A stretch of 60,206 nucleotides of DNA from Caldilineales bacterium. GTDB lineage: Bacteria > Chloroflexota > Anaerolineae > J102. The number at the start of each line of letters is the position of its first letter. Within the stretch, counting starts at the first letter, position 1. Position numbers and translations under genes: made by a program. The stretch covers positions 1 through 60,206 of the forward strand of contig JAIBAP010000035.1 in NCBI GenBank assembly GCA_019695115.1, read 5' to 3'. Below, one piece after another: positions 14,638 to 55,036 of the stretch. The notes beneath the pieces are model-generated. The model ran no database searches and had not been told where the DNA came from. It worked only from the letters and a program-made list of their open reading frames with translations.

Positions 14638-17600
14638 CTACCTCATCACCCACGGCAGATAGAACGACGGCCGCCCGGCGAAACTGAGCGAGGCGGCCGG
14701 GCGCAGGGCGGCGGTGTCGAAACTGGCGTAGATCAATCCCTGTTCACCCTGCGCGGCCACCGCCAGCCGGTCGCCCGCGGCCGAGTAGACGAACGCTCGC
14801 CCATCGGCCCGTTGCCGGGCATTGCCCAGATTGGCGAACCAGTAGCCATCGGCATCGACCAACGCCGCCAGCGGTAGCGACTGGCCTGCCGCGCCCTCGC
14901 CATCGGCATCCTGCAAGGTCAGGTGGAGGATGGCGCCGGCGGCCGGCGTAACGCCATCGACGGCGAAGACCCGGCCGTAGATGGTGTCGGGGGCAGGCGG
15001 GGCGGCCAGCGCCGGGATCGTGCGGAAACTGGCCGGCGGAGCGGCCGGCCCGCCCTCCCCGCCCGATACGATGCGGTAGAAATAGGTCGTATCCGGCTTG
15101 AGACCGGCCACGGTCACGAAGTGCGTGCGGCTGACGATGTCGTAGCCGCGGGCGTCGACGCCGAAGCTGCCCAGGGCAGCGGTCTCGCCATACTCCACAA
15201 AGCCGGTGGCGGGCTGCTCGCTCAGCCAGCTCAGGGTGGCGCTGCCCTCGCGCAGGTTGGCCAGTTGGAGGTTGCTGACGGCGACGGCCTCGGCGGGGAT
15301 GGCGGCGGGCGGCTCGGCGGCTGCGGCGGCCTGGACGGCTTCGTCCGCGTCCGGCGGCGCTTGCGGCGTGATCACCCAGCTACCGTTCACGCGCAGGAAG
15401 TAGCCCTGATGCCGCTCGATGGCGAAATCCCCGAACGGCAAGCCGCAGATGTGGCCGCTCCAGCCGCTATCCAGCCAGCGGTCGATCTCCACGGCCGGCG
15501 CGCCCTGGCTGATGATCTCATCGCACAGGCTGGCGGCGGTGTAGGCGCCAGTGTGGGGGACGCTGATCGCATTCCAGCCGCTGTTCAAGGTCAGCGAGAC
15601 CGGCTGTGTGACCGGCTCGCCCGCCAGATTCCAAACGCTGGCAGTGTTGTTGCGGACGAAATAGCCGCCGCCCAATGCCAGCCCGAAATCGTTGGCCGGC
15701 GCCGCGCAGGCGTGCCCGTCCCAACCGGCCTGATGCCAGCGATCGACCTCGACCAGCGCCCCGCCCTGTTGAGTGGCCTGGGTGCAGAGGCCAGCCGCCG
15801 TCAGGGGGGCGGACGGCGCCAGGGGCAGGGCGATGAAGCTCCAGCCGCGCTTGAGCGTCAGTTGGGCGATGTGGGCGCAATCGTCGGCCGGGCCGAGCAG
15901 CAGGTCGGGAGCCGGCCGGCCGGCGGCGGCATCGATGGCGGCCGGGCAGGCGACGCCATCCCGCCCGGCCCGCACCTCGATCTGCAGACGGTCGCCGGGG
16001 GCCGAATAGCCAAAGTAGCGCACCAAATTGCTGACGCGCGCGTTGCCCAGGTTGACCGACCAGTAGCCATTGGCGTCGGTAAGGGCCGATAGCGCCGCCG
16101 ACCGGCCCGAACTGCCCTGGCCGTTGGCATCCTGCAAGCTGAGGAAGACGAGCGCGCCCGCCGCCGGGCCGCCGCCTGCCTGCAACACACGACCAAAGGC
16201 GGCGTCGGTGGCGGGCAGGGTCAGGGTGGGGCCGGTCTTGAAGCGGAAGAAGGCGCCGCCGTTGTCGGCCTGCGTGGGGCCGGAGCGGACGGCGAAGTAG
16301 TAGGTGGTGTTGGGCGTCAACCCGGTCAGGGTGACGAAATGGGCGTCATCGCGCACACCCTCCCCGCGCACATCGGCGGCCGTGCGGTGGACGTGGTTGG
16401 CGTCAGGGCCGAAGACGATGCTGCCATCGGCGACGACGTCGGTCAGCCACGAGATGGTGGCCGAGGCGTCGGTCAGATGGGTGGTGCGCACATCGGCAAT
16501 TGTGGGCGTGGGTGCAACCACACTCACCTGCACGTGCAGCACCCGGCGCCCGTGTTGCGGGTCGTTGCTCAGCAGAATCAGGTGGGCGGCAAGGTCGGCA
16601 GGCGAGTCGCCGCTTTCGATGGCGACCTGCGCCACGGCCGTCCCGCCCGGATCGACCAGGCCCACATCCGGGGTCGCGCTCAGCCAGTCAACATCGCTGT
16701 ACTCCTGGCAGCGCTCGTTCTCGCCGGGGTAGGCGAAGCAGATGGCCAGCCCGTTCGTCAGCCGCGGGGCATTGAAGCCAAAGCTCAGGCCGGTCTCGGC
16801 GTCGCCCTGGATGCCGACCGTGGCCGAACCACCATAGTTGTTGCTGGAACCGAATACCACATCCTGATACTGGAAGAGGATGTTGCCGTTGGCAAAGAGG
16901 ATGGCCTGCCAGTTGCCGGGCTGAACGCCACTGAACGGCTGCAACTGGTAATACTCGATGATCAGCCGGTCCGCCTCGGCCAGAGTGTAGATGGCGCCTG
17001 GGCCGACGACCAGATCATCCCAGAACGGGGCGATGAAGGTGAGCAGGCCATCGAGGGTCGGGCCAGGGATGGGGGAGTTGTCGAATGTCACCATCCTGTC
17101 CTGGAAATAGAGGATGCCGTTGGACGAAACCGCCAGCCGGCGATAGTCCTGACCGTAGAACGGAAACGCGAACGGCAACTCCATCGGCCAGAAATAGGCG
17201 TCGTCCTTGCCAGTTAGCTGCGTGATCTCGGCCCCGCCTCCCCCGGCCGGCGGCGCAATCTCGACCCACTGATAATGCGGCCCGCCCTGGATGCGGTTGT
17301 CGCGCCAGGTATAGCCGAACAAGTCCGGCCCGCCCTGCGGTGGGATGGAGGGAGCGGAGGCCGGCTCCTTCTCGAGCAGGCGATAACTGAGGGTCTCGGC
17401 CCCGGTGTTGGTGAGCGTCACCGGTAGGGTCAGGCGCTCGCCCACCGCCATCGTCGCCTCGACGCTTGCCGGCGCAAGGGTCAGGCAAGGTTGCAGCAGT
17501 CGCAGGTCGAGGGCGAGGGGCGTGGTCGTCTGGCCGGTGATGGTGAGGCCGCCGGCAGAGGCGAACTCGTGTAGCGGATGACCGGCTACGACCGCATAGG

Positions 17601-20600
17601 GCGATTCGGCTGCCGGCAGCCAGAAGTGAAAGGCGCCGTTGGCGTCGCTCATCGTCTCGCGGATCACGCCGGTCGCACTGGTAACCTGCACTACGGCCTC
17701 TGGCAGCGGCGATGGCGCGGCATCGCAATAGCCCAGCCCCCTCAGCGACCCTTGCAACAGGCCGTAGGTGGGCGGCGGCGTCACCGTCATCGTCACCGGC
17801 AGGCTGGGTGAAGGGTAGGGGCTGTCTTCCTTGACCCGCAGCGCCGCCCGATAGACGCCCGGCTCGGGGATCTGAGCCTGGGCGGCGTCGAAGCTGAGGG
17901 TCAGGCCGACCTGGCCGTGGGCGGGCATGCTGCCAGAGACAGGGGCCACGCCGAGCCAGGGCGGGCCGGCGCTCGCATTCTGACACGGCAGGCCCAGATC
18001 GAGGAATTGATTGACGTCGTAGAAACGGATTTCGCCGAGATCGACCTCGTCGATGCCGCCTACAGCATGCAGCCGGTTGGCGACGCAGACAGACGCCGCC
18101 GCCACCACCGGGTAGACGAGGGCATGATCCTGGTTCACCCAGGCGCCGCCCGGCCACAGCGCCGGCTCGAAGGCCCAGGTGTCGCCAAAGGCCGTCCAGG
18201 GGGCGCCACCCCGCCCGCCGCCGCCGGCCACGTAGATCCGCTCGCCATACGAAAAGGCGTTGGCGCTCATGCGGGCATTTGGCACCGGTGGGCCGCTCGC
18301 GTCCCAGGTGTTGGTGGCCGGGTGATAACGCTGGACGGTGGCCGTCAGTCCCTGGCCGGCGACGCCGCCGCCGAGGACGAAGATGTAATCGTCGAACACC
18401 GTCACACCGGCGTAACCCACCGCCACCGGCATCTGCCCCGGCAGCAGCGACCACTCAGCCGTGACCGGGTCGTAGCGCCAGACGTCACCGCCTGACGAGC
18501 CGCCGAATGCGTAAAGGTTGCCGTCCAGCGCCGCCGAGATGGGCGTATCCACCACCGGCCAGGTGCTCAGCTGCCAGACGTCGGTGGCGACATCGTAGAT
18601 CTGGAAGGCGTTGGTTTGAGCGTCGCTGGCAATTGAATAACCGCCCACCAGGTAGATGACATCGTCGATGCAACTGGCATTCATGTTCATCAGCGCCAGA
18701 GGCATATCCGCCAGCCGCGTCCACAGGTTCTGTAACGCATCATAACGCCAGGCGTCGCCGCGCGCCGAGGTATCGTCGGCCCCGCCGAACACAAACAGGT
18801 TTTCGCCATCACAGGTCGTCGCAGCCGCCCGATAGGACCGGCCGCCAGGGAAGGGATCGAGCAGCGCCCAACCGTTGGCCGCCAGCTCGGGCCGGTCAGA
18901 CACAGCCCAACCACCTGCCGGCTCGCCGGCCTGGCCTCCTGTCCCCACCGGGCCGCGGTCGAAGGGATGGCTGGAGGGCCGGGTCTTGATCGCGGCCGGG
19001 GCGACGCTCTGCGCCCGCACAGCCGCCATCGCCGGCGGGCGAATGCTGGCTTCCCACTCGACCTGCCGCCCGCCCTCGTTCTTCAGCAGCAGCGAGGCCG
19101 TCGCCGTCGTCCCCCACTCCACTGCCACCGCCAGACGGTCCGGTTGAAACGCCAACCGGCCGGCGGGCAGGCGGAAATCCTGGCGAACGACGCCCCCGGC
19201 CATCACCGTGGGCCGCTCGACCAGCGGGCTGTAGCCGCCAGCCAGCGTGGCCGTCATCGCCGCCGAACCGGCCGGCGCGAAAAGCTGGTAGTAGCCATCG
19301 GGCAGCGACAGGTCGGCCGGGGTGGCGACGGTGGTCGTGCTCGACCCGCCGGCATGGCTCACCCTGGCGCCGTTCAGCCCTGTGTTCAGGTTGGCGTCGA
19401 GGACATGCCCCACCACCAGCCCACCTGCCTCCGGGTCGCAGCCGCCATAGATGGCGATGTCATCGACATAGTAACCCGACAAGGTGACGCTGCCATCGCT
19501 GCGCAGGTTGAAGGCGATCTTGAAATTCGAGACGGCGAAGCTGGCATCCAGCTGCGCAGTGTACTGGCGCCAGCTCGAATCCACCCGGCCGGAGACCGGA
19601 CCCAAAACCCGCGTCCAACTGACGCCGCCATCCTTGCTGACCTCGACCGTGGCTGTGTCGAAGCCGGATTCCGTTTCCAACCACTGCCACCACGCCACCG
19701 TCATCGGGCTGCCCTGGAAGGAACGCAGATCGATGGGCGGCGAAACGAGATAGCCGTCTTCGCCGTTGCCATAACTCCCACTCAGGTTGGTGGCCCAGAG
19801 TTTCGTCCCTGAGTGGGCGCTGCCAGGCCCGCTGCTGGGGACGCCCCATTCCCACGAGGATGGCGCCACCTCGACCTCGTAAAAGCCGCCGTCGTTGGCC
19901 TCGAACGATTCACGGAGGGCGAAGCGAGGCCGATAGCCCGGTGCGGTGCAGTCAGCCCGATCGGGCAAGAGGGCGAAATTCTGGACGCGGGTTGCTTCGG
20001 CAAGGGTGAAGGAACGCGACGCCGGCACATAGCCGCCGTTGACGGCGCTCACCACCAACGAGTAGCTCTGGCCGATAAAGAGGTCGAGGCGATATTCGCC
20101 GGTGGCGGGATTGGTGAAGATGGGGCCGTTGGGATAGCCCGCGATCTCGACCCTGGCATAGAGCGGCCAACCCTGGCCGCCGCCATCGCTCACCACGCCG
20201 CTGAGGGTGAGGCTGGGCAGCGGGGTGAGGCCGACATCCTGGCCGAGCGCGCCGCCATTCGGAACCACCAGGCTCAGATTCACCGGCCCGAAACCGTAGG
20301 CGCTGACGCCGAGCGTCTGGCTGCCGGCCGGGACGCGCAGGAAACGATAGCGGCCGTCGGCGTCGGTCTCGGCGCTGAAAGCGCCCAGTTGCAGATGCGC
20401 CCGCGCCACCGGCGCGCCCGTGCTGGCGTTCGTCACCCGGCCCTGCACACCGCCGGCGGGGCTGCTGATGCAGCTGGGGAAGCGGAAGGCGCCGACCCGC
20501 GTCTGCCAGTCCTGGGTCGAGGTGGTCTGATAGTATTCCTGCGTATACCAGAAGGTGCAGTCATCAGTCGGGTCCACCGTCATCAGGCTGTAATCGCCCC

Positions 20601-22134
20601 AACGCCCGTAGATGCTGAGTTGCGAACCGGCCCCCGGCTGCATCGTCACCTCGGCCTGCGCCAGCACCCCGGCCGGGTCGTCGGCCAGCCGCCCGGCATA
20701 GCGGATGGACGGGTAGACGGTGGTGCTGGCGGCGCTGTAGCCCAAGGCAAGGTTGCCGCCCGCGTCCATGGCCACGCTCCCCATCCAGCGGCTGGTGCTG
20801 TCCGGGGCGTAAGTCCCCTGCTGCTGGATGCTCCAGTCGCCCTGCTGACGACGCAGTTCGTACCAGCGGATGCCGGCGCGGGCGTTGCCGACGGCGACGG
20901 TGTGGTTCAGGACCAGCGCCTGGTGGTCGCCGAAGTTGCGATAGGCGGCGCGGTACATCAGGCGGTCGGAGATGGCGTCGAGATAGGATTCGGAGCCGAC
21001 GCCGGGTTGCGGCAGGCAGCTGCGGGTGACGCAGATGAGGCCATCGAAGGGCGCCACCGCCAGGGGCGTCTGCGCAGGCGCCAGCGTCGTGTTGGCAGGG
21101 TCGGCCCAATCGACCGCAAGTTGCCAGATCTGCAATCGATCCGCCGGATCGCCCTGGTCGTCGTCGCTGATCTGCACCAGGAAATTGGGCGTCCCGGCTG
21201 GCGGCGGCAGCACACCATCCATATCGGCCGGCAACATGCCACCCAACCGGGGGTCGGTGGCGAACAGGTCGAAGTAGATCATCCGCGCCGGTTGCCCGGC
21301 CAACATCTTGTCGCGCTCGAAAACCACCACCCCCTGCCCCGCCCACTCTTCATTGGGCGTAAAGACGAACTGGTTGGCGGTCATATAGTAGCCGTCCGGC
21401 CAAACCCCGAATTTGGGGTAGTCGTTCAGCTTGGTCGGATGATAGAGGAAGGCGTAGCGATACCAGGCGCCGGTGGGGTTGCCGGTGGTCGAGATGGCGA
21501 TGCACTGGTAGAAGGGGCCTTCGGGGAAGTTGGGCAGGGCAAACTGGCTCATCAACCAGCGGTCGGCGAGCTGGTCGTAGAGCACCACCGGGTCGCCGTC
21601 GTTGCTGGTCTGGCAAGGGCCGCCAAAGCCCTGCCACAGGGTGTTGATGCCCGCCGGCCCATACAGCCTGTTCCCGGCCTTGTCCCAGATGGCAAAGGAG
21701 ATGTTGACCATCTGCACAAAGTGGTCGGGGCCGACATCGCCGATGGTGTCGGGCGGCAGCACCTGATCGACATTGCTCACGCCCTCGAAGGTTAGAAACG
21801 GCGCGGGCATGGCCGCCTGGCCGGGCGAGGTCTGCAACACCGGGTCGGGCGCGGATGATCCGGCAGCCGCAGCATCGCCGCGACCCAGCAGGGGTCGAAC
21901 GGGAAGCGGAGCGCGGCCCGGTTCGGCCGCGAGGGGCGGCAGGAAGGCCAACGGCGGCGAGACATCGTAATGCGCTGCCGAACTGATCTCAGGCGACACT
22001 GGCGCCGAGGGAACAGCTGATCCCTCGCCTGCTCCAGCTTGCGCCTCTATCCGGGAGCCGGCCGCTGCCAGGATCAAGACAGCCAGCACGACCGCTGCCG
22101 CCAACGCACTCTTGCCCACGCTTTGAGTTTTCAT
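14638..22134 (-). CDS. Giant secreted multidomain protein (kelch, fibronectin III, carboxypeptidase-regulatory-like)
   Basis: A 2498-residue secreted protein. I prefer ATG at 22134 over the upstream in-frame ATG at 22155 because GAGGAGG lies just before it and a clean signal peptide follows (MKTQSVGKSALAAAVVLAVL...). In order it shows a conserved N-terminal beta-propeller-like domain (about 100-560), carboxypeptidase-regulatory-like modules (GRVTNASTGAPVARAHLQ and several later copies), and an immune-inhibitor/MAM-like jelly roll at about 760-900. Kelch repeats follow (GGADDTSARGDAWRYD, VGGYSIA, FGGSSGGDVWRYD), then fibronectin-III-like modules (LTPNTTYYFAVRSG, LKPDTTYFYRIVSG). It ends in FYLPWVMR, a tail common on exported Chloroflexota proteins. 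Probably cell-surface or extracellular; the ligand is unknown. Confidence 0.75.
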   Translation of the reverse strand: MKTQSVGKSALAAAVVLAVLILAAAGSRIEAQAGAGEGSAVPSAPVSPEISSAAHYDVSPPLAFLPPLAAEPGRAPLPVRPLLGRGDAAAAGSSAPDPVLQTSPGQAAMPAPFLTFEGVSNVDQVLPPDTIGDVGPDHFVQMVNISFAIWDKAGNRLYGPAGINTLWQGFGGPCQTSNDGDPVVLYDQLADRWLMSQFALPNFPEGPFYQCIAISTTGNPTGAWYRYAFLYHPTKLNDYPKFGVWPDGYYMTANQFVFTPNEEWAGQGVVVFERDKMLAGQPARMIYFDLFATDPRLGGMLPADMDGVLPPPAGTPNFLVQISDDDQGDPADRLQIWQLAVDWADPANTTLAPAQTPLAVAPFDGLICVTRSCLPQPGVGSESYLDAISDRLMYRAAYRNFGDHQALVLNHTVAVGNARAGIRWYELRRQQGDWSIQQQGTYAPDSTSRWMGSVAMDAGGNLALGYSAASTTVYPSIRYAGRLADDPAGVLAQAEVTMQPGAGSQLSIYGRWGDYSLMTVDPTDDCTFWYTQEYYQTTSTQDWQTRVGAFRFPSCISSPAGGVQGRVTNASTGAPVARAHLQLGAFSAETDADGRYRFLRVPAGSQTLGVSAYGFGPVNLSLVVPNGGALGQDVGLTPLPSLTLSGVVSDGGGQGWPLYARVEIAGYPNGPIFTNPATGEYRLDLFIGQSYSLVVSAVNGGYVPASRSFTLAEATRVQNFALLPDRADCTAPGYRPRFALRESFEANDGGFYEVEVAPSSWEWGVPSSGPGSAHSGTKLWATNLSGSYGNGEDGYLVSPPIDLRSFQGSPMTVAWWQWLETESGFDTATVEVSKDGGVSWTRVLGPVSGRVDSSWRQYTAQLDASFAVSNFKIAFNLRSDGSVTLSGYYVDDIAIYGGCDPEAGGLVVGHVLDANLNTGLNGARVSHAGGSSTTTVATPADLSLPDGYYQLFAPAGSAAMTATLAGGYSPLVERPTVMAGGVVRQDFRLPAGRLAFQPDRLAVAVEWGTTATASLLLKNEGGRQVEWEASIRPPAMAAVRAQSVAPAAIKTRPSSHPFDRGPVGTGGQAGEPAGGWAVSDRPELAANGWALLDPFPGGRSYRAAATTCDGENLFVFGGADDTSARGDAWRYDALQNLWTRLADMPLALMNMNASCIDDVIYLVGGYSIASDAQTNAFQIYDVATDVWQLSTWPVVDTPISAALDGNLYAFGGSSGGDVWRYDPVTAEWSLLPGQMPVAVGYAGVTVFDDYIFVLGGGVAGQGLTATVQRYHPATNTWDASGPPVPNARMSANAFSYGERIYVAGGGGRGGAPWTAFGDTWAFEPALWPGGAWVNQDHALVYPVVAAASVCVANRLHAVGGIDEVDLGEIRFYDVNQFLDLGLPCQNASAGPPWLGVAPVSGSMPAHGQVGLTLSFDAAQAQIPEPGVYRAALRVKEDSPYPSPSLPVTMTVTPPPTYGLLQGSLRGLGYCDAAPSPLPEAVVQVTSATGVIRETMSDANGAFHFWLPAAESPYAVVAGHPLHEFASAGGLTITGQTTTPLALDLRLLQPCLTLAPASVEATMAVGERLTLPVTLTNTGAETLSYRLLEKEPASAPSIPPQGGPDLFGYTWRDNRIQGGPHYQWVEIAPPAGGGGAEITQLTGKDDAYFWPMELPFAFPFYGQDYRRLAVSSNGILYFQDRMVTFDNSPIPGPTLDGLLTFIAPFWDDLVVGPGAIYTLAEADRLIIEYYQLQPFSGVQPGNWQAILFANGNILFQYQDVVFGSSNNYGGSATVGIQGDAETGLSFGFNAPRLTNGLAICFAYPGENERCQEYSDVDWLSATPDVGLVDPGGTAVAQVAIESGDSPADLAAHLILLSNDPQHGRRVLHVQVSVVAPTPTIADVRTTHLTDASATISWLTDVVADGSIVFGPDANHVHRTAADVRGEGVRDDAHFVTLTGLTPNTTYYFAVRSGPTQADNGGAFFRFKTGPTLTLPATDAAFGRVLQAGGGPAAGALVFLSLQDANGQGSSGRSAALSALTDANGYWSVNLGNARVSNLVRYFGYSAPGDRLQIEVRAGRDGVACPAAIDAAAGRPAPDLLLGPADDCAHIAQLTLKRGWSFIALPLAPSAPLTAAGLCTQATQQGGALVEVDRWHQAGWDGHACAAPANDFGLALGGGYFVRNNTASVWNLAGEPVTQPVSLTLNSGWNAISVPHTGAYTAASLCDEIISQGAPAVEIDRWLDSGWSGHICGLPFGDFAIERHQGYFLRVNGSWVITPQAPPDADEAVQAAAAAEPPAAIPAEAVAVSNLQLANLREGSATLSWLSEQPATGFVEYGETAALGSFGVDARGYDIVSRTHFVTVAGLKPDTTYFYRIVSGGEGGPAAPPASFRTIPALAAPPAPDTIYGRVFAVDGVTPAAGAILHLTLQDADGEGAAGQSLPLAALVDADGYWFANLGNARQRADGRAFVYSAAGDRLAVAAQGEQGLIYASFDTAALRPAASLSFAGRPSFYLPWVMR

Positions 22135-22283
22135 GGCCTCCTCCTCGAGCGCCACAACACAAGACTGGAAGAAAAGTTACCCGAAGTATACTGCAAAGTC
22201 CGGCCGGCGTCAATATCCTTTGCGGCCCGACCGATGGTATGATCTGCCTGCTCATCCACTCCCCTTTTCCCCGCCTTCCTGCC

Positions 22284-47248: not shown

Positions 47249-48238
47249 TTACGCCCGCGTCGCTGGCTTACGAATGACGCTGATCAACACGGCGAACAAC
47301 ACGATCAAGCCACGGGCCACTTCTTGCCAGTAAGGATCGACGCCCATCAGGGTCATGCCGTTGGCCAGCAGGCCGATGAAGAGCACACCCAGGAAGGTGC
47401 CGACCATCGAGCCGGAACCGCCCGCCAGACTGGTGCCGCCGATGACGACGGCAGCGATGACCTCGAACTCCAGCCCTTCGCCCACGTTGTAGGCCCCGGC
47501 CATGATGCGCGAGGAGATGACGATGCCGCCGATGGCCGCCATCAGGCCGGTGATGGCGAAGACGAGGATGCGTGTGCGCCCCACTGGGATGCCCGACAGC
47601 CGCGCCGCCTCCTCGTTCCCACCCACGCTGTACACCGAGCGCCCGAACACCGTCCGCGTGCTGAGGAAAAGGAAGACGAGCACCGTGATCACCATCAGCA
47701 CGGCCGGCACCGGGATGACCTTGAACAGATAACCCTGGCCCCAGAAGCTGAAGGAATCGGGGAAGGGGGTGATGGGATAGGCCTGGGTGATGACTTTGGC
47801 CAGGCCCTTGTAGCTCATGAACATCGTCAGGGTGACGACGAAGGCCGGGATATTCCACCGCACCCGGATCGCCCCGGCCAGGCTGTGGATGAGGATGCCG
47901 GAGGCGATGACGATGAGGACCGCCAGGAGCAGAGGCAGATCGCGTTTGATCGCCAGCACACCCAGCAGCGACGACGACCAGGCCACCGCCGAGCCGACGC
48001 TGACATCGATGTCGCCGGAGATGATGACAAAGGTCATGGCGCAGGCGATCATGCCGTTGATGGCCACCGCCCGCAAGACGTTGAACAGATTGCGCTGGGT
48101 GAGGAAGTTAGGCGCGAACTGCCACAGCAAGATGAACAAGATCACCAGCGCCACCAGCAGGCCAGAGCGGGACAACAGGTCGCCGACGTTGCTGAGCCGG
48201 GTCGAGCGGGATTGGGCTTGCGTACTTTGAGCGGTCAT
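47249..48238 (-). CDS. Ribose-type ABC transporter permease
   Basis: A 329-residue integral membrane permease of the RbsC/branched-chain-like family (BPD_transp_2). There are about eight to ten membrane segments. VISGDIDVSVGSAVAWSS is the conserved early motif, AGAYNVGEGLEFEVIAAVVIGGTSLAGGSGSMVGTFLGVLFIGLLANGMTL is the family signature, and the C-terminus is short and basic. Its ATG overlaps the end of the ATPase gene by 4 bp. It should form the channel with the ATPase and the duplicated binding protein; the substrate is probably a sugar. Confidence 0.9.
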   Translation of the reverse strand: MTAQSTQAQSRSTRLSNVGDLLSRSGLLVALVILFILLWQFAPNFLTQRNLFNVLRAVAINGMIACAMTFVIISGDIDVSVGSAVAWSSSLLGVLAIKRDLPLLLAVLIVIASGILIHSLAGAIRVRWNIPAFVVTLTMFMSYKGLAKVITQAYPITPFPDSFSFWGQGYLFKVIPVPAVLMVITVLVFLFLSTRTVFGRSVYSVGGNEEAARLSGIPVGRTRILVFAITGLMAAIGGIVISSRIMAGAYNVGEGLEFEVIAAVVIGGTSLAGGSGSMVGTFLGVLFIGLLANGMTLMGVDPYWQEVARGLIVLFAVLISVIRKPATRA

Positions 48239-49737
48239 ACGGTGCTTTCCTCCATCACCATTGCCAATAGGTTTTCGAGATTGGTTTGATCGGGCTTCAC
48301 TTCCCCGCTGATGCGCCCCTGGTTCATGATCAGGATGCGGTCGGCCACATCCAGCACTTCTTCGATTTCGGACGAAATAAAGACCACAGCCAACCCGCGG
48401 CGGGCCAGGTCGCGCACCAGGCTGAAGATCTGTTCCTTGGCCTGGATGTCGATCCCGCGCGTGGGTTCATCCATCAACAGCACTTCTGGCAGTGTGTTCA
48501 GCCAATTGCCCACAACCACCTTTTGTTGATTGCCGCCGCTGAGGGTGCGCGTCGCCACCCCCAGGCCAGGCGTTTTGATGTCCAGCGAGGCCACCATCTC
48601 CCGCGCCAACTCCGTTCTGCGGCCAAGCTGCAAGACCCCCTGCACGCTGAAGCGGTTGAAACTGGCCAATGTCAGATTGTCCTGGACGCTGAAGCCCAGC
48701 ACCAGCCCCTGGCGTTTGCGGTCTTCGGGCGTCAGCGCCAACCCGTGCGCCTTCATGGTCGTGGGCGTGGGCTGAGCGACAGGTTTGCCCTTGACCAGCA
48801 CTTCGCCGCTATCCACTTTGTCCAGCCCGAAGATGGCTCGCAGCAACTCGGTGCGCCCCGACCCAAGCAACCCGGCGATGCCCAGCACCTCGCCCCCGCG
48901 CACCTCGAACGAAATGTCGTTGAGCAGGCCCCGACGCTTGAGGTTCCTCACTGCCAGCTTGACCTCGCCCAACTTCCCGCTCTCGCCCCATTCGGTGCGC
49001 TGCCAGTCGGCCCCGATCATCATCTGGGCGATGCGGGCGGGCGTGGCTTCGACGGCGGTGATGGTGCCGATCAACCTGCCATCGCGCAGTACTGTCACAT
49101 TGTCGGCCACATGTGGGATTTCTTGCAGGCGGTGGGTGACGTAGATGATGGCGTGGCCTTGCTGAGCCAGGCGCCGGACGACCTTGTGCAGCACCGCCAC
49201 CTCATGCGAAGCCAGGGCGCTGGTCGGCTCATCGAGCACCAGCACGCGTGGCTCGAACGAGATAGCTTTGGCGATCTCGACCAGCTGCTGCTGCGCCACA
49301 CTCAGCCGCGAGACCTGCTCATCCAGATCGAGCGAGACTTCGAGCTGGTCGAGCGCGGCTTTGGCGATGGGGCGGATGGCCTTACGATCGATCACCGACA
49401 GACCGGCCAGGTTGCGCTTGGGCCAGCGCCCCAGGAGGATGTTCTCGGCCACGGTCAGCCCCGGCACCAGGCTCATCTCCTGATAAACGGTGCAGATGCC
49501 GCGCTGGAAGGCGTCTTTGGGATTGGCGATGTCCACAGGCTGACCATCGATGCGGATTTCGCCGCTATCAGGGTGGACGGCGCCGCTGAGGATTTTGACC
49601 AGCGTGGACTTGCCGGCGCCGTTCTTGCCCAGCAGCGCCCGCACCTCGCCCTTCTGTAGGTTGAAATCGACGCGGTCGAGGGCGACGACGCCGGGGTATT
49701 GTTTGCTGATCTGGGTCAGTTCGAGGATGTTTGTCAT
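48235..49737 (-). CDS. Sugar ABC transporter ATP-binding protein, two-domain
   Basis: A 500-residue RbsA/MglA-type ATPase with two nucleotide-binding halves. The first half has ALLGKNGAGKSTLVKIL (Walker A), LSVAQQQLVEIAKA (signature) and VLVLDEPTSAL (Walker B). The second has a degenerate Walker A GLLGSGRTELL, LSGGNQQKVVVGNWL and VLLMDEPTRGID. It powers import through the permease encoded by the overlapping next gene. It is separated from the binding-protein gene by a toxin-antitoxin pair. Confidence 0.9.
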   Translation of the reverse strand: MTNILELTQISKQYPGVVALDRVDFNLQKGEVRALLGKNGAGKSTLVKILSGAVHPDSGEIRIDGQPVDIANPKDAFQRGICTVYQEMSLVPGLTVAENILLGRWPKRNLAGLSVIDRKAIRPIAKAALDQLEVSLDLDEQVSRLSVAQQQLVEIAKAISFEPRVLVLDEPTSALASHEVAVLHKVVRRLAQQGHAIIYVTHRLQEIPHVADNVTVLRDGRLIGTITAVEATPARIAQMMIGADWQRTEWGESGKLGEVKLAVRNLKRRGLLNDISFEVRGGEVLGIAGLLGSGRTELLRAIFGLDKVDSGEVLVKGKPVAQPTPTTMKAHGLALTPEDRKRQGLVLGFSVQDNLTLASFNRFSVQGVLQLGRRTELAREMVASLDIKTPGLGVATRTLSGGNQQKVVVGNWLNTLPEVLLMDEPTRGIDIQAKEQIFSLVRDLARRGLAVVFISSEIEEVLDVADRILIMNQGRISGEVKPDQTNLENLLAMVMEESTV

Positions 49738-49779: not shown

Positions 49780-50043
49780 TCACCTGAGAAGTCGATCGTA
49801 TTCATCATGACTGCCAATCCAGAACCAGGTGATGGTGTCGTCTTTGAGCAATCCAAGAGCGCGATGGTTCAGGCCGATGCGAACAGAATAAACCGGTGCG
49901 TTCGGCTTCACCTGCTTGAAACGCAAGCCAGGGTGAGCTGGATTCTGGCGCCAAAGCCGATATGCCTCTTTTGCACGTTGCCGGACTTCAGGCGGCAGTG
50001 CCCAATAAGCCTTCCAGAATGAAGCACGGGTGTATGACTTCAT
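49780..50043 (-). CDS. RelE/ParE-superfamily toxin
   Basis: An 87-residue toxin-fold protein. The pattern SFWKAYWALPPEVRQRAKEAYRLW, FKQVKPNAPVYSVRIGLNHRALGLLKDDTITWFWIGSHDEYDRLL is typical of RelE-like proteins, with a basic central strand (VRIGLNHRALG) and the closing W-I-G-x-H-D-E-Y-D. The ATG overlaps the preceding antitoxin's stop by 4 bp. Antitoxin first, toxin second fits a type II module. It may cleave ribosome-bound mRNA, as inferred from the fold. Confidence 0.85.
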   Translation of the reverse strand: MKSYTRASFWKAYWALPPEVRQRAKEAYRLWRQNPAHPGLRFKQVKPNAPVYSVRIGLNHRALGLLKDDTITWFWIGSHDEYDRLLR

Positions 50044-50339
50044 CGTTCGATGAATTCACCGGCTTCGTCGAACATTGGCATGACGTTGTTGTTGCGGATA
50101 TCAGCCTCGACTTCGGCGACCAACGCAGCGAGTTTGGCATCGTCGGTAGAGGCGAATTGTGCGTCCCACCATGCCTCATCAGCCTCGATCACTGCCTGGA
50201 GCTCGTGGTCGGATGCGGGGCGCGAGCGAAGAAATAGGGCGTATTCGAAAATCTGCGCCTTGCGTTCTGGCGATAGCGTGTCGACCACGGCGGCAATAGC
50301 GCGCGTATAATCAGGATAGGAAGGCGTTTGAGTGGGCAT
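50040..50339 (-). CDS. Antitoxin partner of the RelE-like toxin
   Basis: A 99-residue protein whose N-terminal part (DYTRAIAAVVDTLSPERKAQIFEYALFLRSRP) resembles the short helical DNA-binding or dimerisation region of DUF2281/AbrB-associated antitoxins. An acidic C-terminal tail (DDAKLAALVAEVEADI, FDEAGEFIER) fits toxin neutralisation. The start at 50339 (MPTQTPSYPDY) is preferred over the upstream frame. It overlaps the toxin by ATGA. It sits inside the sugar ABC gene set. Confidence 0.75.
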   Translation of the reverse strand: MPTQTPSYPDYTRAIAAVVDTLSPERKAQIFEYALFLRSRPASDHELQAVIEADEAWWDAQFASTDDAKLAALVAEVEADIRNNNVMPMFDEAGEFIER

Positions 50340-50447
50340 ATACGGGGCCTCAAGCAGTTCGATGTTGCGATTCTGAGAGAAGCATGGGATTACAGTTGGG
50401 TGTCTGGCGCCATTATCTGTGTTTCCTCCACCCGTGTCCACACCGGG

Positions 50448-50483
50448 CCGGAGCCATACACCCGTGCGGGTGTATGGCTCCGG
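50448..50483. terminator. 17-bp perfect hairpin downstream of the binding-protein gene
   Basis: CCGGAGCCATACACCCG (50448-50464) pairs exactly with 50467-50483 across a 2-base spacer. It lies 20 bp after the stop of the substrate-binding lipoprotein gene and before the toxin-antitoxin pair. It is probably a terminator or attenuator that lowers downstream expression; no T-run follows on the minus strand. Confidence 0.65.
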
Positions 50484-50502
50484 TGGGAGTGGGGGACGAG
50501 GG

Positions 50503-52473
50503 CTATTCGAAGATAGCGTTGCCCTCGGTCTTCATGAACTTATCGATCAGGGCATCGTTGCCGCGGCCGAAGAAGATGGTTGGGGTGTTCGTCACCGACT
50601 CCACCTTCTCGCCAGCCAGCACCTTCAGCAGGGTCATGAACGCATCGTATCCCATCTGGTAGGGGGCCTGGCCGGTCACACCTTGCAGGATGTCGTCGCC
50701 GGCCTGGAGCATCTGCCCCATCTGGTTGTTCATGTCGGTGCCAAAGACGAAGACCTGGCCACCCAGACCCAACGTCTTCACCGCATTAGCATGGGCCACG
50801 GTGCCGCCTTCGTTGGCCGCCCACAGCAGGTTGATGTCGGGGTTGGCTTGCAACATCGCTTCCGACACTGGTTGGGCCTTGTCGGCCAGCCAGCCGGCCT
50901 GATCCGCCACCACTTCCACGCCCGGCAGGCTGCCTACCTGGGCCAGGAAGCCTTCCTTGCGCGGCGGGCAGCCCTCGAACTGGTCGCAGTTGAGGATGCC
51001 GATCGTGGCCTTGCCGCCGAGTTTTTCGGTGATGAACTTGGCCGCCGCCTCGCCCGACTTGATGCCCAAGTCTTCGTTCTTGGTCACCAGATAGGCGCTG
51101 GCGATGCCATCTTCGGCCACGCAGGTGTTGAAGCAGACGATGGTGATGCCCGCCTCTTTCGCTTTCTTCAGGGCGGCGACGGAGCCTTCGGCCGAGATCG
51201 GGGTGATGACGATGGCCTTGACCCCGCGGGTGATGTAGTCGTCGATCAGGCTGGCTTCTTTGTCCAGCTTGTTCTCGGTGTTGCCCATGATGATCTCGGC
51301 GCCGGTCTCGTCCGCCGCCGCCTGCATGCCCGCCTGTACGGTCTGCATGAAGGTGTCGGACTGGAAGACCACGCCAGCCACCAGCAGGCCCTCAGGCGCC
51401 ATCATGGCGCCGCTGGCTTCTGCCGGGACCTCGAAGATGGCATTGCCCTCGGTGTCCATGAACTGCTTGATCAGGGCGTCGTTGCCGCGGCCAAAGAAGA
51501 TGGTCGGGGTGTTGGTCACCGGCTCGACCGTGGCGCCGCCCAACACGTCCAGTGTCGCCGCCAATGCGTCGTAACCCATCTGATAGGGGGCCTGGCCGGT
51601 CACACCTTGCAGGATGTCGTCGCCGGCCTGGAGCATCTGGCCCATCTGGTTGTTCATGTCGGTGCCGAAGACGAAGACCTTGCCCGCCAGACCGAGTGTC
51701 TTCACGGCGTTGGCATGGGCCACGGTGCCGCCCTCGTTGGCCGCCCACAGCAGGTTGATGTCGGGGTTGGCCTGCAACATCGCCTCCGAAACCGGCTGGG
51801 CCTTGTCAGCCAGCCAGCCGGCCTGATCCGCCACGACTTCCACACCCGGCAACGCGCTCACCTGAGCCAGGAAGCCTTCCTTGCGCGGGGGGCAGCCCTC
51901 GAACTGGTCGCAGTTGAGGATGCCGATCTTAGCCTTGCCGCCGAGCTTGTCGGCGATAAACTTTGCCGCGGCAGCGCCGCTCTTGTCACCCAGATCCGAG
52001 TTCTTGGTCACCAGGAAGCCGGAGGGGATGGTGTCGTCGTTGACGCAGGTGTTGAAGCAGAAGATGACGATGCCTGCATCCTTTGCTTTCTTCAGGGCAG
52101 CGATGGAACCATCCGCCGAGATGGGGGTGATGACGATGGCCTTGACCCCGCGGGTGATGTAGTCATCGATCAGGCTGGCCTCTTTGTCCAGCTTGTTCTC
52201 GGTGTTGCCCATGATCATCTCGACCCCGGCTTCGTCCGCCGCCGCCTGCATGCCTGCCTGCACGGTCTGCATGAAGGTGTCGGACTGGAAGACGACGCCG
52301 GCGATGAGGGTCTTGCCTTCGGCCGGAGCAGCGGTCGGCTCGGCGGGTGCGGCCGTCGCTTCGGCCGGGGCAGCGGTGGGTGCGGCCGGGGCGGCGGGTT
52401 GGGCCGCGCAGGCCGTCAGCAGTGCGGCCACCAGCAGCAAGACGAAAATGGGTAGATAACGCTTGAGTTGCAT
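50503..52473 (-). CDS. Duplicated periplasmic-binding-protein-type sugar-binding lipoprotein
   Basis: A 656-residue lipoprotein containing two near-identical Peripla_BP_4 (ribose-binding-like) domains in one chain. The lipobox is LLTAC near residue 22, followed by an Ala/Pro/Glu linker. Domain 1 starts at LIAGVVFQSDTFMQTVQAG and domain 2 repeats the same sequence after a VPAEASGAMMAPEG linker. The DNA repeat unit is exactly 924 bp. Each domain has NTENKLDKEASLIDDY and CDQFEGCPPRKEGFLAQV. I chose ATG at 52473 because AAAGGAGG lies 6 bp upstream; the ATG at 52479 directly abuts it. It works with the ATPase and permease downstream. Confidence 0.9.
   Translation of the reverse strand: MQLKRYLPIFVLLLVAALLTACAAQPAAPAAPTAAPAEATAAPAEPTAAPAEGKTLIAGVVFQSDTFMQTVQAGMQAAADEAGVEMIMGNTENKLDKEASLIDDYITRGVKAIVITPISADGSIAALKKAKDAGIVIFCFNTCVNDDTIPSGFLVTKNSDLGDKSGAAAAKFIADKLGGKAKIGILNCDQFEGCPPRKEGFLAQVSALPGVEVVADQAGWLADKAQPVSEAMLQANPDINLLWAANEGGTVAHANAVKTLGLAGKVFVFGTDMNNQMGQMLQAGDDILQGVTGQAPYQMGYDALAATLDVLGGATVEPVTNTPTIFFGRGNDALIKQFMDTEGNAIFEVPAEASGAMMAPEGLLVAGVVFQSDTFMQTVQAGMQAAADETGAEIIMGNTENKLDKEASLIDDYITRGVKAIVITPISAEGSVAALKKAKEAGITIVCFNTCVAEDGIASAYLVTKNEDLGIKSGEAAAKFITEKLGGKATIGILNCDQFEGCPPRKEGFLAQVGSLPGVEVVADQAGWLADKAQPVSEAMLQANPDINLLWAANEGGTVAHANAVKTLGLGGQVFVFGTDMNNQMGQMLQAGDDILQGVTGQAPYQMGYDAFMTLLKVLAGEKVESVTNTPTIFFGRGNDALIDKFMKTEGNAIFE
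50506..51384 (-). repeat. Second copy of the 924-bp intragenic repeat
   Basis: This segment repeats 51430-52308 with a constant offset of 924 bp and no length change, as checked at both ends (positions 50507/51431 and 51357/52281). Differences are mostly synonymous. It encodes the second binding domain. The remaining 45 bp of the unit (51385-51429) is the linker. Confidence 0.85.
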
Positions 52474-52622: not shown

Positions 52623-53588
52623 TCATAGCGTGCTTATCTTCTTTTTCTTAACATGATAATCTGCTTTTGGTTCATGTAAAGATGGAAGTCTGTCTAACCA
52701 TGACAAATTCTTACCAATTACCAACTCGTTCATTGTTGCGTGGTGTGTGTTCTTCATCGGAATAAGGCGCATCTGAAATCCGTGCAGCCGTGCTAGTTTC
52801 TTGACCTCTTCAGCTTCGTCATATGTCATAACGAAATCACCACGCACCGATCCGCAAATAGTGAACAAGTGCTCATGATCAAGATTATGATGCTTATAGA
52901 GACGCCTACCGGCTTTCTTTCCTCCTGCAGTATATGGTGGGTCGATAAAATAGATAGCATCTTCAAGATCAGAAAACTCCATCATGACATCGATGCCATC
53001 ACTACAACGAAAATCGATCTTTTTTGCAACTTTTTGTATATCTGTTAGCCTATGAGCAAGTGTCTCGGGATACCAGCGAGAACTGACTCCCTTTCCGTTC
53101 TCTCCATATCGTATGAAACTTGAGCCTTCGGCAAGTATTCCTCCATGAAGCGTTCTATTCTTGAGAATGGTATGAAACGCCTGTTCTCTCCTATTTGCCG
53201 GCACATTCTGAAGCTCGTCGATCAAGGACTCTCTGGTCATATCGAAGTCAAGAATTCTTTTTGCCAACCATCCTGCGTCACCGCTGACAATGGATTCCCA
53301 GACTGCGGCCACGTCATCGTCCAACTCAACCATGACAACTCTCTCGACTAGATTCTCAAAAAGCGCGGTAAGACTGATGATCCCTCCGCCGGCAAAAGGC
53401 TCGATCAGGACACGCGGCCTGAGAGTCATACTCGCTATCCACTGCCGGAAAGTGGGCACAAACCATGTTTTCCCGCCGGGATAGCGAAAGAGGCTCCGTT
53501 GCGGCACAGAGGCGACATTGACCGGTCTCAGCAGACCTGTCGCCTCTATCCACTCATCAAACAACACGCCTTGTTGCAGCATCGACAT
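52623..53588 (-). CDS. D12-class N6-adenine DNA methyltransferase
   Basis: A 321-residue adenine methyltransferase. It has FRYPGGKTWFVPTF (opening), EPFAGGGIISL (SAM-binding) and FIDPPYTAGGKKAG (catalytic DPPY), in the alpha-class order of Dam-like enzymes. ATG at 53588 begins one base after the endonuclease gene's stop (TAAcATG); the upstream in-frame ATG at 53642 would overlap it. It should protect the host against the adjacent NotI-like enzyme. The gene is AT-richer than the surrounding chromosome. Confidence 0.9.
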   Translation of the reverse strand: MSMLQQGVLFDEWIEATGLLRPVNVASVPQRSLFRYPGGKTWFVPTFRQWIASMTLRPRVLIEPFAGGGIISLTALFENLVERVVMVELDDDVAAVWESIVSGDAGWLAKRILDFDMTRESLIDELQNVPANRREQAFHTILKNRTLHGGILAEGSSFIRYGENGKGVSSRWYPETLAHRLTDIQKVAKKIDFRCSDGIDVMMEFSDLEDAIYFIDPPYTAGGKKAGRRLYKHHNLDHEHLFTICGSVRGDFVMTYDEAEEVKKLARLHGFQMRLIPMKNTHHATMNELVIGKNLSWLDRLPSLHEPKADYHVKKKKISTL

Positions 53589-53589
53589 G

Positions 53590-54459
53590 TTAAAATGGCC
53601 TTTCGATTGTTTGAGTCGTCGGAGGGGTTTCCAGTTGCTCATCTAGCTTCTCTTGAAGAAGCCGCATGAAATCGTCCATCCTCCCCGGCGATGGTGTCGT
53701 CATTGAAAGCAGGGCTGGCTCAAATTCGGTATAGACTTCATCCACCTTCGTAAGATAGTATCCCTGGTCCACCTCGCCACGCGATTTCAAATCATAGATG
53801 AACCATGCAATTTCCGCATTGCTCTTTGGAACTCGTCTGAGGGCGGGCAGGGTCTTGAAGAAGCTCTTGTTCAATGCCACCGCGATCTTCCTACCCCAAC
53901 TGTGAAGGATTCCACCCTTGTAGAGAAGCTGCGGGACAAGTCTCTTGCGAGAAGAGGAGAGGTAATCGGGACGAGGATAGTTAGGTTCGCTGGACCAATC
54001 CATATGAGCATTGTTTTGCTGATCTCGCATGTAATACTCGAATGGTTCACGCACATTGCCAGAGATGTACACAGCTTGTATTTCAAGAGCACCAAAATCA
54101 ACTACTTTTCCTTTGTCATCATAAGAAACAAGAACCACATCGATGTTTCCAGCCGATTTGCCATCAGCGTCAAGCATACGCACTTCAGTAAGAGAACTCC
54201 AATAGGCGCTATTATCAAAGAAAAAAGATGCAGCATCGCCAGTAATGACCCAATCCTGACGAAATCGGACTGGACATGTAATTACAGGTGCATTCTCGTA
54301 AAGAATGCTGCATACACCCAGGGGATCCTTGGCCTTGTCCTTTGTACAATTTGGCACCCTATTGTTGAACGGGCATAGGCGATGGGATCGATAGCGTTTG
54401 GCCATTTCGCTTTGGGCGGTGATTGGATAGCCGAAAACTTCTGCTAATGGTTGTGTCAT
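53590..54459 (-). CDS. NotI-like type II restriction endonuclease
   Basis: A 289-residue protein resembling NotI-family endonucleases. The N-terminal zone has the Cys set LCPFNN...PNC...GVC...ITC, matching the Cys4 iron site of NotI. The likely active site is GNIDVVLVSYDDKG...ALEIQAV, a PD-x-ExQ variant of the nuclease core. The start ATG at 54459 (MTQPLAEVFGYPI) is preferred over an upstream ATG that lies in a repeat. It is transcribed ahead of the methyltransferase. The recognition sequence is unknown; the partner's adenine chemistry implies the site contains A. Confidence 0.8.
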   Translation of the reverse strand: MTQPLAEVFGYPITAQSEMAKRYRSHRLCPFNNRVPNCTKDKAKDPLGVCSILYENAPVITCPVRFRQDWVITGDAASFFFDNSAYWSSLTEVRMLDADGKSAGNIDVVLVSYDDKGKVVDFGALEIQAVYISGNVREPFEYYMRDQQNNAHMDWSSEPNYPRPDYLSSSRKRLVPQLLYKGGILHSWGRKIAVALNKSFFKTLPALRRVPKSNAEIAWFIYDLKSRGEVDQGYYLTKVDEVYTEFEPALLSMTTPSPGRMDDFMRLLQEKLDEQLETPPTTQTIERPF

Positions 54460-54495
54460 ATGGTCATGTACGGGTGGAGGTTGGTTGTTAGTGAA

Positions 54496-54535
54496 AGGAA
54501 TAACGACTGAAGTCGTTACTACGTCGTTACTACGA
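54496..54535. repeat. ACGACTGAAGTCGT palindrome and GTCGTTACTAC repeats
   Basis: ACGACTGAAGTCGT is a near-perfect palindrome at about 54503-54516, followed by two GTCGTTACTAC units (54513-54533). It overlaps the end of the F420-type reductase gene and separates the restriction-modification island from the next operon. It probably marks the border of transferred DNA or is one more dispersed repeat. Confidence 0.55.
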
Positions 54536-55036
54536 GGGAGCATGTGGTCTCAAGACCATCACCGGGATCACGCGGCCGCCCGTGCGCGTGGCATAGGCGG
54601 CGTAGCCGGGGTACAGTTCCACCGCCCGGCGCCAGCAACGTTCGCGCTCGTCGCCATCGGTCTCGTGAGCAGTGTAGGTCGCCGTTTGCCCGTTCAAGAG
54701 GACCTGGACTTCGGGATGGGCGCGCAGGTTGTAGTACCAGGCCGGATGGTGGGATTGGCCGAAGTTGGAGGCGATCAGGATAAAACCGTCGCCGTCAGGG
54801 ATGCTGAGCAAAGGGAGGGTGCGCGGCTGGCCGGTCTTGGCGCCGATGGTCGTGATCGTCAGCACGGGCAGGCCGGTGAGGAGGGCGGTGAGGGAGGTGC
54901 GACCGCCGGTGTAGCGCAGCAACGGCCGGTCGAGACGATGGGCGGTGAGAGCCAGGAAGCGGGAGCCGGGGGCGGTGGCCGCTATCCGCCGGACGAGGCG
55001 GTGCCACCCAGGCGATGGCGGTTGGTCAACGGACAT
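54530..55036 (-). CDS. Nitroreductase/DDN-family F420-type oxidoreductase
   Basis: A 168-residue protein of the deazaflavin-dependent nitroreductase family. Landmarks are the core LTITTIGAKTGQPRTLPLLSIPDGDGFILIASNFGQSHHPAWYYNLRAHPEVQVLLNG and the closing Y-A-x3-T-G-R-x-I-P-V-M-V-L-x-P. It is a split-barrel enzyme that would use F420H2 or FMN. The ATG at 55036 overlaps the MFS gene's stop by 11 bp. No F420 biosynthesis gene is in the window. Confidence 0.85.
   Translation of the reverse strand: MSVDQPPSPGWHRLVRRIAATAPGSRFLALTAHRLDRPLLRYTGGRTSLTALLTGLPVLTITTIGAKTGQPRTLPLLSIPDGDGFILIASNFGQSHHPAWYYNLRAHPEVQVLLNGQTATYTAHETDGDERERCWRRAVELYPGYAAYATRTGGRVIPVMVLRPHAPS

Follow-up and report, generated by a model that had tools for sequence, protein, structure and literature searches.

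Whole binding domains repeated in tandem within predicted substrate-binding lipoproteins of an Anaerolineae bacterium

Capture by an ABC importer is usually adjusted through surplus expression of a separate substrate-binding protein (SBP). The SBP gene described here encodes its binding domain twice. It lies in a 60,206-nt stretch of DNA from a Caldilineales bacterium, referred to as the window (Table 1). Pfam finds two Peripla_BP_4 (PF13407) stretches in the predicted product, which scores 293.8 bits as a whole against a cut-off of 35.1; scored apart, the stretches reach 156.2 and 150.5 bits, each above the gathering score. By motif scan a single lipobox (LTAC, residues 21-24) lies N-terminal to both domains, and copy 2 runs up to the stop codon. 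A sequence-only reading, which began the gene at an alternative ATG at 52473, had proposed two tandem domains with one shared lipid anchor, and the Pfam and motif results support two such domains behind one lipobox. A 692-residue antisense frame (50377-52452, plus strand) spans the whole gene and mirrors the repeat; it is probably an effect of composition.

Table 1. Features of the window, SBP arrays of the genome and ATPases with a permuted insert. Positions refer to the window unless a contig or locus is named.
Feature	Position	Strand	Basis or remark
Tandem substrate-binding lipoprotein gene (predicted), 658 aa	50503..52479	-	Open frame; Peripla_BP_4 x2, E 1.6e-87; nearest NCBIfam models D-allose and RbsB SBPs, below equivalog cut-offs
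Signal peptide with lipobox L21-T-A-C24	52408..52479	-	Sequence, motif scan
P/A/T/E-rich linker, lipid anchor to first domain	52318..52407	-	Sequence; pLDDT <50 at residues 18-55
Binding domain copy 1, residues 55-350	51430..52317	-	Alignment, profile, motifs
12-residue linker between copies	51394..51429	-	Sequence; pLDDT <50 at residues 345-363
Binding domain copy 2, residues 363-658	50506..51393	-	Alignment, profile, motifs
RbsA/AraG-type ATPase, two ABC_tran domains	48235..49737	-	Pfam; NCBIfam AraG 3.6e-157, below cut-off; gene order kept in 4 other loci
RbsC/AraH-type permease, BPD_transp_2	47249..48238	-	Pfam, NCBIfam; gene order kept in 4 other loci
Arrays measured in detail	C13, C16, C43 (two adjacent genes), C24, C3 (three copies), window gene		
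Arrays measured in detail, further	C33 (Bmp); C4, C10 (Peripla_BP_6); C40 (SBP_bac_6/SBP_bac_1)		
Twelfth array, SBP_bac_1	C3:46257-48350		95% identity across 412 residues
Permuted-insert ATPase	L042:9808-12546 (G000:C24); L090:7573-10143 (G001:C18); L141 (minus strand); L143		Four genomes of the class

The two copies are offset by exactly 308 codons (924 nt) with zero indels across 296 aligned codons, confirming an in-frame intragenic duplication. The description of the duplication as exact holds for the register but not for the sequence, as the copies share 85.2% of their nucleotides and 86.5% of their amino acids and are not near-identical as had been claimed. Nor are the differences mostly synonymous (69 synonymous versus 62 nonsynonymous), with third codon positions holding 79 of the 131 nucleotide differences. 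The Ka/Ks comparison suggested in that reading gave a dS of 0.44, a dN of 0.097 and a dN/dS of 0.22, and neither half has an excess of nonsynonymous change. Chance is ruled out, since the 888-nt copy segment is 85% identical to its partner and matches the rest of the window at 38% at most (mean 27%, sd 2.8%).

Codons 135-174 and 295-334 are less alike between the copies than the remainder (72-78% amino acid identity), and the two halves carry identical motifs at all sites matching the sugar pocket. Three of these motifs, PRKEGF, AANEGG and GTDMN, align to the Thermotoga maritima ribose-binding protein; together with GQAP they vary little or not at all among the ten copies of the orthologous set, and both halves are therefore expected to share one ligand. 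The motifs and the dN/dS ratio support the claim that both halves are kept, and argue for purifying selection on each. In the predicted structure, a model of modest confidence (full-length pLDDT 63.6), the alternating order of helices and strands is alike in both halves. Foldseek matched this modest-confidence model to sugar SBPs (E 1.7e-15; TM by target length mostly 0.72-0.84), consistent with the two-lobed SBP fold.

The ATPase and permease genes lie downstream of the SBP gene on the same strand. The order SBP-ATPase-permease is common to four related loci, which marks the window system as a CUT2-type sugar importer and, judged by sequence, its SBP as the capture subunit of a CUT2/RbsABC-type transporter. 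We leave the ligand unnamed because no NCBIfam equivalog reached its cut-off for the window SBP (AlsB, 149.4 versus 335; RbsB, 128.6 versus 337). Among solved sequences, the ribose-binding protein of T. maritima is closest (E 5e-23).

Other genes in the window were also noted. Between the SBP and ATPase genes are a ParE-like toxin gene (PF24732) and a small frame upstream of it (49780-50441, minus strand). The small frame is likely the antitoxin, and neither has a match in the four related loci. Directly upstream of the SBP gene, a NotI-type restriction endonuclease (PF12183, E 2.5e-65) and a D12-class adenine methyltransferase are encoded (52623-54543, minus strand). Further away, a 2512-residue surface-type protein (14641-22176, minus strand) has Kelch, carboxypeptidase-regulatory, fn3 and phosphatase N-terminal domains.

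Orthologues of the window SBP vary in copy number. Three copies are encoded in a species of the same genus (G001), two each in CALMZT and QGUR (loci L095 and L096), and one in SJ719 (L098). The G001 copies are 84-90% identical to window copy 1. The collapse to a single domain that had been named as a sign of misassembly is not what the independent assemblies hold, as the orthologous gene has two or three copies in them. Two contigs of G005 break off within the binding domain, one at its end and one at its beginning, as would be expected if the repeat disrupted a short-read assembly. The two tandem orthologues of CALMZT and QGUR (from L095:2163 and L096:5947 onward) encode a signal peptide with no obvious lipobox, and a count of domains per lipid anchor thus does not apply to all cases.

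On a codon tree the copies cluster by genome, with support of 97/99 for the window, 100/100 for CALMZT, 100/100 for QGUR and 79/94 for G001. The protein tree does not resolve the placement of the two window copies, which the codon tree joins. Grouping by position, with window copy 1 beside G001 copy 1, was rejected on the codon tree (p-AU 2e-5), and with it, for the window gene, the simple case of one ancestral duplication whose copies have kept their places. The clustering fits repeated independent duplication or homogenisation of the sequences. Among the copies 45 sites sort by genome, 14 by position and four in the cross pattern; the excess of position-sorted over cross-sorted sites is a weak hint in the alignment of an older array that was in part overwritten. 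Protein trees of other arrays gave both outcomes. The copies group by genome in C16, the three-copy G001 C204 and G008 C497, whereas in the C43a family the copy-1 and copy-2 lineages are stable by position across four genomes; some arrays, then, are old and have kept their positions.

The window gene is one of many. At least 12 SBP genes in the genome, the window gene included, contain whole-domain tandem copies, with DNA identities of 81-99.7%. The duplication described earlier is thus not a single event: orthologues differ in copy number (one to three), copies group by genome, and at least 11 more SBP genes of the genome have this architecture. The families represented are Peripla_BP_4, Peripla_BP_6, Bmp and SBP_bac_1/6, and a family search of the genome found further frames holding two or three Peripla_BP_4 domains. 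All eleven tandem genes measured have a lipobox and a dN/dS indicating purifying selection (0-0.43). Most arrays adjoin importer genes. In many the dS is only 0.007-0.03, many arrays besides the window gene are 97-99.7% identical, and at several loci the copies share exact stretches of about 700-1500 nt. Such copies are found in few of the SBP_bac_1 genes, and the SBP_bac_5 genes are all single.

To determine whether other gene classes are duplicated in this manner, we ran a diagonal scan over the SBP loci and over a sample drawn blind to SBPs (79 tiles, 1.58 Mb, about a quarter (26%) of the genome), which contains 868 non-overlapping frames of at least 250 aa. Near-identical duplications, defined in this sample as copies that are at least 80% identical over 250 residues or more, were found in three frames, all three encoding SBPs. 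No other gene class among the 868 frames had a near-identical whole-domain duplication; the remaining repeats were shorter or more diverged. By three of three cases in the blind sample, whole-domain duplication is thus SBP-specific in this genome.

We also surveyed the distribution beyond this genome. At least 16 tandem Peripla_BP_4 genes are encoded in at least 12 of 59 other sampled Anaerolineae genomes, representing at least 10 families. Outside the Anaerolineae, 42 Chloroflexota genomes gave 120 Peripla_BP_4 matches at E <=1e-40, none of them tandem in one frame. Tandem Peripla_BP_6 genes are present in G005, G008 and G026. Multiplying capture domains along one chain looks like a habit of the Anaerolineae and not the oddity of one gene. 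G026 also has two adjacent Peripla_BP_4 matches of identical score in different frames (C72:7290-8872), which may be two genes or one tandem SBP gene interrupted by a frameshift.

The reading we favour, with moderate confidence and with its function inferred, is that same-specificity capture domains are multiplied on one anchor to serve one importer. The whole binding domain would be multiplied in frame, with one lipid anchor carrying two flexibly linked domains, or three in the sister species, whose predicted specificity is the same. Each copy would bind the same ligand, and either could dock with the RbsC-type permease. Every polypeptide that is exported and anchored would then bring more binding sites close to one translocator without added genes or promoters. 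Recombination inside the array may alter the copy number and would partly keep the copies alike. The comparisons establish the anatomy, the variation in copy number, purifying selection, the conserved motifs and recurrence across SBP families; from them we infer that both domains bind, that they share docking, that selection favours capacity and that recombination is the mechanism, and the doubling of capture is likewise presumed. As most SBP_bac_1 and all SBP_bac_5 proteins are single, extra capacity is no general need, and the low dS of many arrays means that some may be young and transient instead of selected.

The arrays could instead be a neutral by-product, if recombination duplicates sequences often in this class and SBPs tolerate a self-folding C-terminal domain that brings no benefit. 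The low dS values fit this, as do close relatives with one, two and three copies and the clustering of copies by genome. However, no non-SBP case was found in the blind sample, although an independent domain at the C terminus is common among other exported proteins too. Some arrays are also old and hold their positions, as the C43a lineages do in four genomes, and dN/dS is below 1 everywhere. We consider this account unlikely.

Another account would have the domains diverge. The tandem domains SBD1 and SBD2 of Lactococcus lactis GlnPQ, which are fused to the permease, have different specificities and affinities (PMC8025302). Like GlnPQ, the window SBP places two tandem substrate-binding domains in one chain for one ABC importer. 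The SBDs of GlnPQ are fused to a transmembrane domain and bind amino acids, whereas the window SBP and permease are separate genes, and the SBP is a predicted lipoprotein of the sugar Peripla_BP_4 class with 86% identical copies, numbering one to three. Subfunctionalisation of this sort in ligand or affinity could be read from the two more diverged codon stretches of the window gene; the identical pocket motifs in both halves, and the many other arrays that are too alike to leave room for divergence, make it improbable.

Other known systems resemble the window SBP in part. In OpuA, one SBD is carried per permease chain and is doubled through dimerisation. Two SBDs per complex are reported for OpuA of L. 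lactis (PMC11065425). Both systems give an importer complex multiple identical binding domains, although in the window SBP the doubling lies within a chain. Each window half shares its fold and family profile with the RbsB/AlsB-type CUT2 SBPs (such as 2fn9 and 1drk) and is encoded beside RbsA- and RbsC-type genes; among the matches listed, the solved chains of that type are single-domain proteins of 134-354 residues, in contrast to the two-domain window SBP, and no listed solved chain covers both window halves in tandem. In a partial literature search, tandem lipoprotein SBPs were not found described for Anaerolineae, nor were arrays of near-identical domains that vary in copy number, sit in free SBP lipoproteins and recur in several families of a genome.

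Copy number itself might be the adjustable trait, with frequent expansion and contraction producing variation within a population that tunes uptake. The long exact stretches are good substrates for unequal recombination and orthologues have one to three copies, but our sample holds one genome per species, and we give this account only a slight chance. Assembly duplication, suggested by a draft of 135 contigs in which several arrays are about 99% identical, was rejected and is barely credible, because the differences between copies follow selection-like patterns, independent assemblies have the same architecture at orthologous genes, as do assemblies of few contigs (G063, about 20; G179, 3), and an artefact has no reason to favour SBPs.

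The arrays may also have supplied parts to other proteins. At C24 the tandem SBP gene is followed by one for an RbsA-type ATPase, in which a circularly permuted Peripla_BP_4 domain is inserted between the two nucleotide-binding domains. This insert gives a single alignment (345 columns, 60%) that runs from the end of copy 1 of the neighbouring C24 array across the linker into the start of copy 2, and thus matches an out-of-register unit of that array. Such an alignment would be expected had the permuted domain been cut from a tandem array. The insert is retained in the sister species, whose SBP at this locus is single-copy (insert dN 0.15, dS 0.75). G219 encodes it too, and in G173 it is present with its frames broken. 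A role in cytoplasmic sensing is a guess.

Tentatively, then, the Anaerolineae may multiply importer-SBP domains repeatedly and independently across unrelated families, with adjustable copy number, and such arrays may have seeded parts such as the permuted SBP domain of the importer ATPase, a putative cytoplasmic substrate sensor. Such genes may be under-counted or broken in short-read assemblies. The graded arrays of one, two and three copies, with identities of 81-100%, provide a set for studying the birth, homogenisation and loss of tandem domains, and a lineage that has multiplied the domain inside the SBP repeatedly, in several SBP families, is a natural experiment that can show whether uptake from scarce substrate gains from linking the capture sites.
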